Positions 1,796-31,604 of a DNA stretch of 34,033 bases are shown piece by piece. Under the pieces are notes generated by a model, which had not been told where the DNA came from, did not search any database, and saw nothing but the letters and a program-made list of their open reading frames with translations. How positions within the stretch are numbered: the stretch's first letter is position 1; every line of letters starts with the position of its first letter. The DNA is from Mycoplasma wenyonii (lineage in GTDB: Bacteria; Bacillota_I; Bacilli_A; Mycoplasmatales; Mycoplasmoidaceae): NCBI RefSeq assembly GCF_003265155.1, contig NZ_QKVO01000005.1:1-34033 (forward strand). The letters are read 5' to 3'. A program made the position numbers and the translations under genes.

Positions 1796-2545
1796 ATGAG
1801 TGATTGTTTAGGAGAAGATAAGAAAGTAGGTGTGACGGGAGCCAATAAAGTTAACTGGTTAGACAGAATTAATAAGGCTATAGCTTCAGGAGAGTTTGCA
1901 AAGTTACCAGATTTTGATCAAATGTTCGATGAAATAAAGTTTTATGGCAATGTAAATCTACATGTCTTTATTCTTGCCTCTAGAGGAGGAGTTGTTTCTT
2001 ATCTAGATCACTTGTATGCTTTCTTGGAAGTTGTAGGTTCTAGAGGAGCTAAGCCTTTTGTACATCTATTTACTGATGGAAAGGATGTACCTGAGAAACA
2101 ATTCATAAATGATCTTCCTGAAATAGAAGAGAAAATAAAAGCAAATAACGCAGTATTATCCTCTATTTCCGGAAGATTCTTTGCTATGGACACAAATCTA
2201 ATGTGAGATAGAACAGATAGAGTTGCCAGAGCCTTTAATAAAGAAAAGGTGACTCCTATTTTTAAATCTGCAGAAGAGTATGTGAAGGCACAATATTCAA
2301 GTACTTCAGATCAATGAATAGTTCCTGCAATTTCTGAAGAATATATGGCAAGTTCAGCTTTAAAGAAGAATGATATATTTGTAAACCTTAATTTCGACTA
2401 TCTGGGAACTAGACAATTGTGTCACACGCTAGTTGGTTCTGGTGACTTGTATGTGCATGATTTAAGATCACTTCCTCATTTAGTTTTGTATGAAATGGTA
2501 GAAGACCCGCACATGTTTGTTTCAGGAACATTATTTAGATGGTAG
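1796..2545 (+). CDS. stand-alone iPGM insert-domain protein, probably not a working mutase
   Basis: The 249-residue product aligns only with the inserted transferase domain of 2,3-bisphosphoglycerate-independent phosphoglycerate mutase (usual length about 510). It starts near the INKAI segment and ends after the MTEYD-equivalent (YEMVED). The phosphatase-like domain with the metal ligands and catalytic Ser is absent on both sides. An in-frame TAA lies 12 bp before the ATG, so no upstream part is missing from this frame. Substrate residues are changed: family GGVHS is GGVVS, DGRD is DGKD, GRYYAMDRD is GRFFAMDTN, and the FRPDR arginines are not kept. Trp codons include TGA. It sits 47 bp before deoD and is probably co-transcribed. 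It may be a binding or regulatory relic; a complete mutase would have to be elsewhere. Confidence 0.75.
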
Positions 2546-2592: not shown

Positions 2593-3339
2593 ATGACAAC
2601 ACCTCATAATGCAGCGCCTAAAGGCTCAATCTCAAAATATGTTATTGTTACTGGCGATCCTCTCAGATGTAAGAAATTTGCAGAACAATTTTTAAATCCT
2701 TGAAAACTTCTTAGCTCAGTTAGAAATTGTTATTGTTATACAGGAACTTATAAAGGAGTTGAAGTAACCATTATGGGTCATGGAATGGGACATGGTTCTA
2801 TTGGAATTTATACCTATGAATTATTTTCTCCCGATATTTATGATGCGGAACTTGTTATTAGATGTGGTTCTTCGGGAGGCATGAGCGACAAAACCAAAGT
2901 TAATGACATAGTTGTAGTGGAAAATATTAGAACTAACTCTAACTATGGCGAGTGATTGAATATGCCTCACAACAAAGAAGACACTATCAAAGTAGATCCG
3001 AAATTAGTAGAATTGGCACATAAGTGTGCAAAAGAATTGAATATTCCTTTAATTAATACAACTAACTGATCAACTGATAATTTCTATACTCCCTATAACT
3101 TAAGAGAACAAGGAGAAAGATCTAAATGTGATACTGTTGAGATGGAAAGTTATGTTCTTGATACTAATGCAAGATACCATAATAAAAAAGGCTTAACCAT
3201 TCTTACAGTTACTGACGCAATGAATAAGGATGGTAGTTTCTCTTCTTTAACTTGACAAGAAAGAGAAACAACCTTAAGCAATATGTTTTTGATTGGTCTT
3301 GAAGTACTTGTTCAATATTCTAAATTAAATAAATCCTAG
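2593..3339 (+). CDS. deoD: purine nucleoside phosphorylase (DeoD type)
   Basis: Cleaves purine (deoxy)nucleosides with phosphate to free base and (deoxy)ribose-1-phosphate, in cytosolic purine salvage. The 248-residue product matches the hexameric family in length. The residues known from the E. coli enzyme are present: His in TTPH, phosphate-binding GDPLR, Arg in VRNCYCYTG, Arg in IRCGSSGG, nucleoside-binding EMES (family EME), catalytic Asp in TVTDAM and the later Arg in WQERETT. The family MGHGMG segment is also present. Two internal TGA codons read as Trp. ATG start with only a weak AGG upstream. It lies downstream of the iPGM-domain gene. Its products would feed the phosphoribosyltransferase and PurB steps of salvage. 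Confidence 0.93.
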
Positions 3340-8394: not shown

Positions 8395-9483
8395 TTATCT
8401 TTTACGTTTTCGTCTCATCAAATCTGTTTCTCTTGCTTTATCATCCTTATTTTGCATTATTTTTTCTTCAAAATTTTCTTTCCATCATTGAAACAAAGTT
8501 TCCATTTTTTGTAGTAGAGAATAATCTTTGTAAGAATTCTCTAATTCTTGTTGGGCTTGAACGATTGTTTGTGTTTTTTCTTGCGAGGTGTTTTGGTTTT
8601 GTTGGATAGATTCTGTTAATTTTTCTATTTCTTTATTCAAAGAGTTTATGGTAACACTAAGAGCGACAAGCAACATGGTTGCAACTTTTTCCTTGGACAA
8701 GGCATATGTAGAGCGGACCCGATAAACACCGCTTTGTTTATTGAAGTCTTTTATAGCTTTTAATAAAGCTTCCTTTACTTTTTCTAAGTCTTTTTGCGCT
8801 TTTTCCGCCCCCCCCGGTATCCCATTTTCGTCCGTTTCGGTTACTCCATTTGTTGTCGCCTGTCCATTTTTCTTATCGAGAATAGCAGAAAATAAAGTAC
8901 CTACTGATTCAAAAAAATCAGTGATCTCACTTGTTTTTGATACACATTGTTCGCCACTTGAATCACCTTTATCTTTCTTTTCAATAGCACAACTTATTTG
9001 ACTTAAAGAGTCTTTTCACTGCTTAAGAATGTCTTTGATAGAAGAATATTTTGTTTGTAGTTCTTTGTGCAGTTTTTCTTGTTTGTCAGCTTCTAATTTT
9101 TTTGTTGAGGTACTAAACAATACTTCATTTTTTGTAACAAGATTTAATAAAGAATTAGAAATATCATCAAATAATTTCTTAACTTCTTCTTCAGTCTTAA
9201 AAATAGTTTCGAATAAAGGTTGTATTTTTTCAAGCGATGATTTTTTCAGTTCTTCTGAGGCAGTCTTGGCGGAAGAAAATTGATCAAATAAGCTATTTAG
9301 CTTCTCTAATCTTGTTTCAGTAGTCTTATCTAATTCTTTAAAGTCTTGACTATGTGCCTTAAAATCTCTATTAAATAACCAATTATTCTGAGTATTTTTT
9401 AAATAAGGAATTACAACAGAGGAAACTGTACCTGTTGAGATAATCGCAGAAGCAATTCCTATCAATTTAGCGCAAAGATACAT
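8395..9483 (-). CDS. membrane-anchored coiled-coil protein, paralog 2
   Basis: The 362-residue product shares the first ~29 residues with paralog 1 (MYLCAKLIGIASAIISTG as its opening), then runs as Lys/Glu/Gln-rich heptad-like sequence. A G8 tract near residue 223 encodes Pro-Gly-Gly, directly followed by AEKAQKDLEKV, which matches AEKAKKELAEV at the same place in paralog 1; the ten-serine insert of paralog 1 is absent. The C-terminus is very basic (RRKRKR). Two TGA codons are read as Trp before the TAA stop. It is flanked on the same strand by atpE copies 3 (upstream) and 2 (downstream). Function unknown; exported surface protein is an inference from the anchor and coiled coil. Confidence 0.8.
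8808..8815 (-). repeat. G8 tract in coiled-coil paralog 2
   Basis: Eight G on the coding strand after CC and followed by C, in frame, at the position homologous to the tract of paralog 1. Confidence 0.9.
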
Positions 9484-12361: not shown

Positions 12362-14272
12362 TTAAATGTCTGAAAGAATTAAAAGACCAAATCAATTAAC
12401 TAACTGCAGTTCACCATCAGGATTTCAGTTCTTGAAGTTAAATTCTCTTGCTTGTTTATCTTCATAACTACCAGAGAAGTCTAAGGGAGAAGTGGAAGGT
12501 TTATAGTATTCCGCGCTAAAGACTGCTTGTTTTTGAGTGCCTGCAGGGGTAAAGAATAAACACACACCCTTAATTTCCTTGATACTTTCTATATTCGATA
12601 ACTTACTGTATAAGAAACTAAGTGTCTCTTTTTTTTGAACCCTTTCTTTTATCACTAACACCTTAGTGCTCTTCTTTGATAGCTCTAATATTCTTTGATA
12701 AAAATCAGAACTGTCAAATTTCAAGAGTAGCTCTTCATCAGAATAAGGAATAGAAACGACAACCAGAGGGAAATTAAGTCAAGAGATTAACTTTCCAGAG
12801 AAACCTGTATCACTATCTACTAAAGAAACAACAATAATCTTTTCATTCAGCTTTAATGAGCTTGAGCCAAAATATCAATTAATTCTTTGTGCTAGATAAT
12901 ATGTCGCATTGTCTATTTCATATCTGTTAAATAATTTCCCTAGATCAGTTTTTTGACTAAATATTTGTTGGTGTAATCTAGGGAAATACTGTAGATAGTG
13001 ATTTAAGTCCTCTACTTTAGTTAGTGTTGATAAGGCTTTAGAGTCTTTGTAATTAGAGAAAGAAAGAGCCATCTTAAGTGAATCAGACTTTCCTTCTCTA
13101 ATATCTTTAGTTAGCTGAGAAATTGTTTTTCTTGCTTCTTTTCTAGAGCAAATCTTTGGATCTTCTAGTAAAGCCAGTGAAACTATTTGAGAGTGGATTA
13201 GCCCTTTAGTTAAAGCTAAGTTTTGTTTTAATTGAAGCTCATTAACACTTAGTTTTGAGAGAAAATCATTCATTTTTAGAACTATATTTCCAAGTAGAGT
13301 AGGACCATCTATTAAGCTAGATCTTTCATTGGACGAGTGAGAAATATCTCTTTCATCTCATAGCTCTATATTTTGCTCTGCTAGATTAGAAAGACTAGTT
13401 AATCATCTAGAGAGACCAGAAATATTTTCTAAACTAACAGGGTTTACTTTGTGGGGCATAGCAGAAGAACCTACTTGGGATTTGGTTGACTCTAAAGATA
13501 TTTCTGATATCTCTTCTCTAGATAAAGTTCTTAAGTTAACTGCTAAGGAATTAATTATTTTTCCTATCTGAGATAAGGAGAATAAATAAGAAGAGTGTCT
13601 ATTTCTGGGCAATGCTTGAGTAGTTCCTCAGATAGTCAATAGTCCTAGTCTATTGGCTAAGTCTTCTTGTATCTCAGGACTAATATGTGCAAAAGAACCT
13701 GTTGCCCCCTTAATAGTTATTACTTCTATATATCTTCTAGACAAATAGAGTTGTTCAAGAGCACTTTCTAATTCTTGATAACAGATAGCAAATTTATGAC
13801 CAAAAGAGATAGGTTCAGCATGTCTTCCATGTGTTCTACCTATTTGAACAGTATTTATGTATTTATGGGAAAAACCTTGTAGAGTCGTTTGTAGCTCTCT
13901 AACTCACTTAACTAACTTGTTATTGACTTCCTTGAGTAAAAGAGAGGTAGCGCTATCAATAATGTCTGAACTTGTTAGACCATAATGCAAGTATTTAGAG
14001 ATAGAAACAATAGATAATTTGCTCTCTAATACATTGAGAAAAGCAACAAAGTCATGTTTAGTTTGTTGCTCTTCTTCTTGTACTTCTGCCTCAGTGATTT
14101 CTATAGAGCCTCAAAGTTGTTCTAGTTTCTTGACTTGTGATTCATCAAGAGAAAGTATGTTGTTATTTAGTAGGGAATAGAGAACTTCTTTTTCTAGAAG
14201 GGCCCATCTTTTGTATTTAGCTTCCTCAGAAAATAAGAGTTCTAGTTCAGGAAGTTGATATCTCTTAATCAT
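12362..14272 (-). CDS. purB: adenylosuccinate lyase with C-terminal phosphoribosyltransferase-like domain
   Basis: PurB makes AMP from adenylosuccinate. The 636-residue frame is far longer than the usual ~430. Residues 1-430 carry the fumarase/aspartase-superfamily marks: TSSDIIDSATS, the His of GRTHGRHAEP and the signature GSSAMPHKVNP. From about 430 a second region starts (KLFNRYEIDNATYYLAQRIN), followed by alternating strands resembling hypoxanthine-type phosphoribosyltransferase: IIVVSLVDSDTGFSGKLISW, then VLVIKERVQKKETLSFLY where the PRPP loop should be. The family's acidic pair and TG.T are replaced (KERVQKKET), so this domain may not bind PRPP. The frame crosses the junction only through TGA (Trp466) and sense codons, with no TAA/TAG. 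The lyase assignment is firm; the C-terminal call is by pattern. Confidence 0.85.

Positions 14273-23636: not shown

Positions 23637-31604
<7,968 letters not shown>

Follow-up and report, generated by a model that had tools for sequence, protein, structure and literature searches.

A predicted reciprocal division of labour between PurB-HGPRT fusion paralogues in Mycoplasma wenyonii and related hemoplasmas

The window, the whole stretch of 34,033 nucleotides analysed here, lies on contig 33 of the draft assembly of the hemoplasma Mycoplasma wenyonii INIFAP02 (G000; 596,665 bases in 37 contigs, ~94% complete). It was read with genetic code 4, in which TGA encodes Trp. Under this code, purB1 forms one unbroken open reading frame of 636 amino acids on the minus strand (14272-12362), and the frame appears broken only when TGA is taken as a stop. 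We compared it across the seven genomes of what is here called the suis group, which also contains M. suis Illinois (G001), M. ovis (G002), 'Ca. M. haemolamae' (G003), M. wenyonii Massachusetts (G004), 'Ca. M. haemominutum' (G005) and M. parvum (G006). The haemofelis group is represented by M. haemofelis Langford 1 (G010), M. haemocanis Illinois (G019) and G028 (~0.9 Mb in ~20 contigs), which is probably 'Ca. M. haemobos'. The features of interest in the window are as follows.

12362-14272, minus strand: purB1, encoding a 636-aa predicted adenylosuccinate lyase with a degenerate HGPRT-like domain (code 4; ORF and profile matches)
12962-14272, minus strand: lyase part of PurB1, residues 1-437 (residue comparison)
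13811-13840, minus strand: GRTHGRHAEP, the His141 region, intact in the window and lost in haemofelis-group PurB1 (residue comparison)
13439-13474, minus strand: VGSSAMPHKVNP, the mobile catalytic loop (Ser262-Lys268), intact (residue comparison)
12362-12961, minus strand: degenerate type-I PRTase (HGPRT-like) domain, residues 438-636 plus stop (hhalign, AF2, Foldseek/VIA)
12623-12649, minus strand: KERVQKKET, the degenerate PRPP-binding loop, residues 542-550 (alignment)
12545-12562, minus strand: CLFFTP, the site of the lost purine-binding Lys165 equivalent (alignment)
12425-12511, minus strand: insert EYYKP...REFNFKNW, found in suis-group PurB1 only and partly kept even in the dead copies (alignment)
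12362-12400, minus strand: VNWFGLLILSDI-stop, where the frame terminates ahead of the GYGxD...RN motif (alignment, downstream frames checked)
2593-3339, plus strand: purine nucleoside phosphorylase (DeoD-like), on the same salvage route but outside the fusion (Pfam PF01048, E 3e-28)

The window also holds features unrelated to purB1. rpoB and rpoC form a single frame of 2655 amino acids (23637-31604, plus strand), with Pfam Rpb2 domains followed by Rpb1 domains. Their junction is open, with TGA codons only, in all seven suis-group genomes, but not in the haemofelis group or in two outgroup genomes, where it is split or interrupted; the RpoB-RpoC fusion is apparently specific to the suis group. 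ATP synthase subunit c is encoded by three genes (PF00137; 133-429, 7930-8223 and 9567-9887, minus strand) whose N-terminal extensions all differ, and which lie near paralogous hypothetical proteins of 358-362 amino acids (555-1631 and 8395-9483). A 249-aa frame (1796-2545, plus strand) contains the iPGM_N domain of phosphoglycerate mutase only, without the metalloenzyme domain, and may be a truncated gene.

The first part of PurB1 resembles adenylosuccinate lyase (ASL) over its whole length. TIGR00928 (purB) covers residues 1-430 against positions 1-428 of the 436-position model (E 3e-92, 309.6 bits), a score 17 bits below the curated cut-off of 326.2, which the haemolamae orthologue passes with 350.4. 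In a phmmer search of the PDB, the closest solved relatives were bacterial adenylosuccinate lyases, with that of T. maritima first; the matches listed were lyase-superfamily proteins only. In the solved S. aureus PurB site, subunit A contributes Asp69, Ser94, Thr95, Gln212, Ser306 and Arg310, with His68 near Ser94, while subunit B contributes His141 and subunit C contributes Arg4, Tyr5 and Asn276 (PMC2917274). From their closeness to Asn276, we infer that the 262-270 loop and Glu275 also belong to subunit C. In T. maritima/B. subtilis numbering, PurB1 keeps His68, Asp69, Ser94, Gln212, Ser306, Arg310, Thr140, His141, Arg4, Tyr5, Ser262/263, Lys268, Asn270 and Glu275, and thus catalytic and phosphate-binding residues of all three subunit roles. 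Judged by these residues, PurB1 1-437 is an ASL in which every catalytic residue tested is kept. It matches S. aureus (2X75) and T. maritima (1C3U) PurB throughout the sequence pattern and in the active-site sets that each of the three subunits contributes, and differs from them in the C-terminal PRTase domain and the shortfall against the NCBIfam cut-off.

The preliminary description of this locus held that the purB frame runs about 200 residues beyond the normal lyase end into a hypoxanthine-PRTase-like region, and both points are borne out, with the extension starting at about residue 438 (12961). The last 199 residues matched no credible family in Pfam or NCBIfam: NCBIfam returned none, and DUF3930 (Pfam E 0.07) was rejected as a chance match. 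The extension was recognised solely through profile-profile comparison and structure. A profile of the three closest extension copies matched a standalone HPRT profile with an hhalign probability of 94.4 (E 8.7e-8). An AF2 model of residues 430-636, built on a shallow alignment of 22 rows, reached a pLDDT of 74.7 and a pTM of 0.72. The best 50 matches listed by Foldseek against the PDB were all HGPRTs (E 5e-7), and VIA aligned the model to M. tuberculosis HGPRT with Z 14.9 over 144 residues. The domain thus adopts, in the model, a type-I PRTase fold nearest to HGPRT.

Despite this fold, the active site has been dismantled. The PRPP loop reads IKERVQKKET where T. tengcongensis HGPRT has VEDIIDSGLT and the haemolamae orthologue EDIVDSKTT. 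The preliminary description had correctly read this loop as KERVQKKET and stressed the missing acidic pair; the E-D pair has indeed become K-E, but the replacement of the catalytic Asp137 equivalent by Gln is the more telling change. The purine-binding Lys165 equivalent, the Lys of ILDKP in T. tengcongensis, is lost, and the frame stops before VGYGIDYAEKYRN, the region of the GYGxD...RN motif; no remnant of GYGxD was found downstream of the stop in three frames. Gone together are the 5'-phosphate loop, the Lys165 equivalent, and the C-terminal stretch carrying the purine-stacking residue and the Asp193 and Arg199 equivalents. PurB1 438-636 shares fold and origin with HGPRT but fails every residue test for a working enzyme. 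By its residues it is a catalytically dead HGPRT-type PRTase domain, as had been suspected.

The PurB1 fusion is kept in seven of seven suis-group genomes, and its extension is open without a stop in M. wenyonii Massachusetts, in M. ovis (55% identical) and in the four remaining genomes. Such a lyase-PRTase fusion is unusual, as the preliminary description had remarked, and the fusion itself is already known: one sentence of a 2014 paper describes M. suis MSU_0708, a member of the same fusion family, as a 'partial HPRT domain fusioned to adenylosuccinate lyase' (PMC3958358). The degree of decay varies across the group. The likewise fused haemolamae and haemominutum proteins retain LEDIVDSK, LFVK and GFGLD/GYGLD...RN, and decay in M. 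suis and M. parvum is of an intermediate degree (LEGVVESK, LFKK, GSGMD/GAGMD). In the latter two species (L007, L008), this partly degenerate fused domain, with the Asp134 equivalent replaced by Gly, is the sole purine PRTase. M. wenyonii Massachusetts and M. ovis show the same C-terminal truncation as the window gene, so the truncation is probably older than the split of M. wenyonii and M. ovis.

The preliminary description had suggested looking for an intact hpt elsewhere in the genome, and one was found. PF00156 matches G000 at three places: prs, upp and, on contig C11, a gene for a protein of 501 amino acids, here called PurB2. No apt, and no hpt besides PurB2, was found in any of the suis-group genomes. 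The HGPRT domain of PurB2 matches TIGR01203 (E 1e-24; 87 bits, under the cut-off of 150) and has T. tengcongensis HGPRT as its best solved match (E 1e-19). Its motifs are near-complete (FDDIIDQGIT, AKP and GYGFDTLYKHRN), with the PRPP motif, Lys165 and GYGxD...RN all present. The first 313 residues match the PurB profile (hhalign E 1.1e-12), and an AF2 model of this N-terminus, made from a similarly shallow alignment of PurB2 and PurB3 rows alone (pLDDT 77.4), superposes on S. aureus ASL in VIA with Z 25.2 over 304 residues. The lyase fold is thus predicted to persist, but the catalytic residues are lost for all three subunit roles. PurB2 appears to be the only intact HGPRT of the G000 genome and is a fusion homologous to PurB1; the genome thus has two copies of one two-domain protein, each alive in the half that is dead in the other. 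The suis-group genomes with PurB2 are only those in which the PurB1 PRTase is dead (both M. wenyonii strains and M. ovis); haemolamae, haemominutum, M. suis and M. parvum lack it.

We then considered selection on the four domains among G000, G004 and G002, using NG86 with code 4 and a codon bootstrap; synonymous change is nearly saturated (dS 0.9 to over 2), which makes the ω values rough. In PurB1, ω was 0.08-0.11 for the lyase and 0.05-0.25 for the PRTase (upper limits 0.11-0.42); in PurB2, it was 0.26-0.46 for the lyase and 0.06-0.16 for the PRTase. All four domains thus have ω below 1. The ratio of PRTase to lyase dN was 2.5-2.6 in PurB1 (CI 1.9-3.5) and 0.35-0.52 in PurB2 (CI 0.25-0.69). 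The relaxation of constraint is mirrored between the two proteins, and neither dead domain evolves freely.

These values bear on what the dead PRTase domain is. It could be a neutral relic, decaying slowly without a role and with few frame-breaking changes so far, a reading we consider unlikely. Relaxed constraint relative to the lyase part, with dN 2.5 times higher, speaks for it, as does the C-terminal motif already missing in all three species of the clade. However, not only ω but also the uncorrected pN/pS of the domain (0.31-0.44) stays well under 1, no stop or frameshift was found in its ~200 codons across three species that differ at more than 60% of synonymous sites, and a dead PurB1 PRTase in M. 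haemofelis and M. haemocanis has an ω of 0.02.

The preliminary description raised the idea that a dead PRTase might bind purines and regulate the lyase; as a purine sensor, the domain would recognise hypoxanthine, IMP or GMP. A retained fold under purifying selection despite lost catalysis would suit such a role, but we regard it as improbable because most of the purine pocket is gone. Loss or truncation has affected the phosphate loop and the Lys165 equivalent, as well as the segment that carries the purine-stacking residue and the Asp193 and Arg199 equivalents. Moreover, the residues conserved among the three dead copies sit mostly outside the pocket, including in the insert specific to the suis group. 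It is less probable still that the PRTase remains active through an unusual mechanism or on another substrate. The domain is retained and folded, and M. suis, having no other purine PRTase, must use its partly degenerate domain or import nucleosides or nucleotides; yet the window clade has lost the Asp137 equivalent, phosphate loop, Lys165 equivalent and C-terminal motif together, and it has an intact HGPRT in PurB2. Finally, a read-through or assembly error linking purB to a pseudogene, conceivable in a draft of 37 contigs, can practically be dismissed, as can a sequencing slip or chance, since the same frame is open in six further genomes, each listed as a single contig.

How the two fusions arose can be approached from gene order. 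In several relatives within the family, hpt lies directly downstream of purB, overlapping or abutting it, with purA adjoining in some (L011, L012, L062, L066, L067); in G015 and G013, the hpt start overlaps the purB stop. Fusion of neighbouring purB and hpt is the simplest origin, and we infer a single event, although the analysis neither established nor ruled out one clade of all fused PRTases against the separate hpts (AU p 0.33). In G031 the lyase groups with unfused PurB, so the fusion there may have arisen independently.

PurB2 forms one clade in the PRTase tree (95/95) and, in the wenyonii/ovis genomes, lies divergently oriented beside guaB (L034 3239-4324; G000:C11:140610-141692). The guaB of these genomes is 80% identical to that of G028 and 61% to that of M. 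haemofelis, against 45-47% to their own group. In the guaB tree it groups with G028 (100/100), and monophyly of the suis group is rejected (AU p 2e-86), while the purA tree is vertical. With a single guaB found, the wenyonii/ovis genomes no longer have the native suis-group gene. The wenyonii-to-haemofelis distance was 5.6 times the within-wenyonii distance in PurA and 8.7 times in the PurB1 lyase, but 2.2-2.4 times in PurB2. Nesting of PurB2 in the haemofelis group in the rooted tree has moderate support (88/92, and 88/33 in another tree). Transfer of guaB between hemoplasmas is well supported, and PurB2 was likely transferred with it; direction and timing are less sure. Both the distance ratios and the guaB tree speak against the alternative that PurB2 descended strictly vertically and was lost several times.

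An earlier study explained WEN_00280, the M. wenyonii hpt, as a transfer from Babesia equi and described it as homologous to MHF_0098, which belongs to a pair of proteins of 475 to 498 aa (PMC3958358). These lengths agree with PurB3 and PurB2, and G004 PurB2 is located at 56-58 kb; position, homology and sizes together suggest that WEN_00280 is G004 PurB2. A Babesia origin does not fit a gene whose ASL half is dead yet conserved and whose orthologues occur in the haemofelis group. The passages of that paper on the hemoplasma 'hpt' genes (WEN_00280, MHF_0096/0098) mention neither the dead-lyase fusion nor the mirrored decay.

In the haemofelis group, the lyase activity itself may be divided. 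None of the three genomes encodes a complete ASL chain. PurB1 keeps all tested subunit A and C residues, and the subunit-B pair Thr140-His141 alone is missing, with DRK..EKYI or DGK..QI in place of GRTHGRHAEP. A fourth paralogue, PurB4 (546 aa in L086/L087, 521 aa in L088), is related to PurB across 396 columns (E 7e-53); in it, the subunit-B segment GRTHG(V/M)HAEPTSFGH is intact and nearly all other active-site residues are lost. PurB1 and PurB4 are the only PF00206 proteins in each of these genomes, purA is retained, and the lyase parts of both are under strong purifying selection (ω 0.04 and 0.08). The residue partition tracks subunit roles, as a mixed tetramer would require, and suggests that haemofelis-group ASL is hetero-oligomeric. 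A search of genome contigs with the PRTase part of the PurB2 alignment identified M. haemofelis and M. haemocanis. These two species also carry PurB3 (L020 69-1496, L016 57-1496), dead in both domains and under purifying selection (ω 0.08-0.12).

Mixed tetramers of ASL and argininosuccinate lyase mutants defective in different subunit roles can rebuild active sites, a phenomenon known as intragenic complementation. In the haemofelis group, such a partition appears fixed in two separate genes. Dead paralogues kept alongside live ones are also known from trypanosome AdoMetDC prozyme and deoxyhypusine synthase. The hemoplasmas similarly retain a dead partner beside a live one, but here the death, as read from sequence and fold, is reciprocal and affects two domains of two fusions. 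We lean slightly towards a broader reading in which hemoplasma purine salvage runs on hetero-oligomers of PurB-HGPRT paralogues with activities split among chains, the haemofelis-group ASL site being completed only between two gene products; PurB2, with its live HGPRT, and PurB3 would be possible members.

In salvage, HGPRT converts hypoxanthine to IMP, PurA and PurB carry IMP through adenylosuccinate to AMP, and GuaB and GuaA lead to GMP; purA and guaA are present in seven of seven suis-group genomes and guaB in six. We consider it probable that an early purB-hpt fusion, whose separate counterparts still adjoin in relatives, produced a bifunctional ASL-HGPRT protein in hemoplasmas, and that its duplicates then divided the work domain by domain. 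In the window organism, PurB1 would supply the lyase step and PurB2, on another contig, the HGPRT step, each carrying a dead half as judged from residues and fold. The ancestor of M. wenyonii and M. ovis probably gained the guaB-PurB2 pair from a haemofelis-group hemoplasma, as indicated by the tree for guaB and by distances and a moderately supported tree for PurB2. The incoming PurB2 would have made the native PRTase redundant, leading to loss of its active site and C-terminal motif; if HGPRT activity has moved to the sister protein, whose own lyase is dead, the decay has a simple cause. The dead domains, under relaxed purifying selection, are most likely needed for folding or assembly, perhaps as surfaces in a mixed PurB1-PurB2 complex that may keep salvage enzymes together. 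Against this account, M. suis and M. parvum lack PurB2 and yet have a partly degenerate PRTase (LEGVVESKST), so decay is not strictly tied to PurB2. Also counting against it, G028 carries PurB2 with apparently intact PRTases on both copies, and the Asp137 position of PurB2 is Asn in M. ovis and Glu in M. haemofelis.

In the literature searched, we found no description of the reciprocal decay, the probable guaB-PurB2 transfer or the split ASL of the haemofelis group, which appear to be new. PurB1 and PurB2 would represent an unusually clean natural case of duplication, degeneration and complementation at the level of domains, in a reduced genome, in which the retention of dead domains is expected to carry a cost. 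Instead of the Babesia origin published for it, the M. wenyonii hpt would be a hemoplasma PurB-HGPRT fusion lying beside a guaB of haemofelis-group origin. A testable prediction follows for M. haemofelis: its adenylosuccinate lyase should be obligately heteromeric, the active site being shared out according to subunit role. If true, this would inform the question of how homo-oligomers give rise to obligate hetero-oligomers. These animal parasites, among them M. wenyonii in the blood of cattle, are uncultured, and purine salvage is essential to them.
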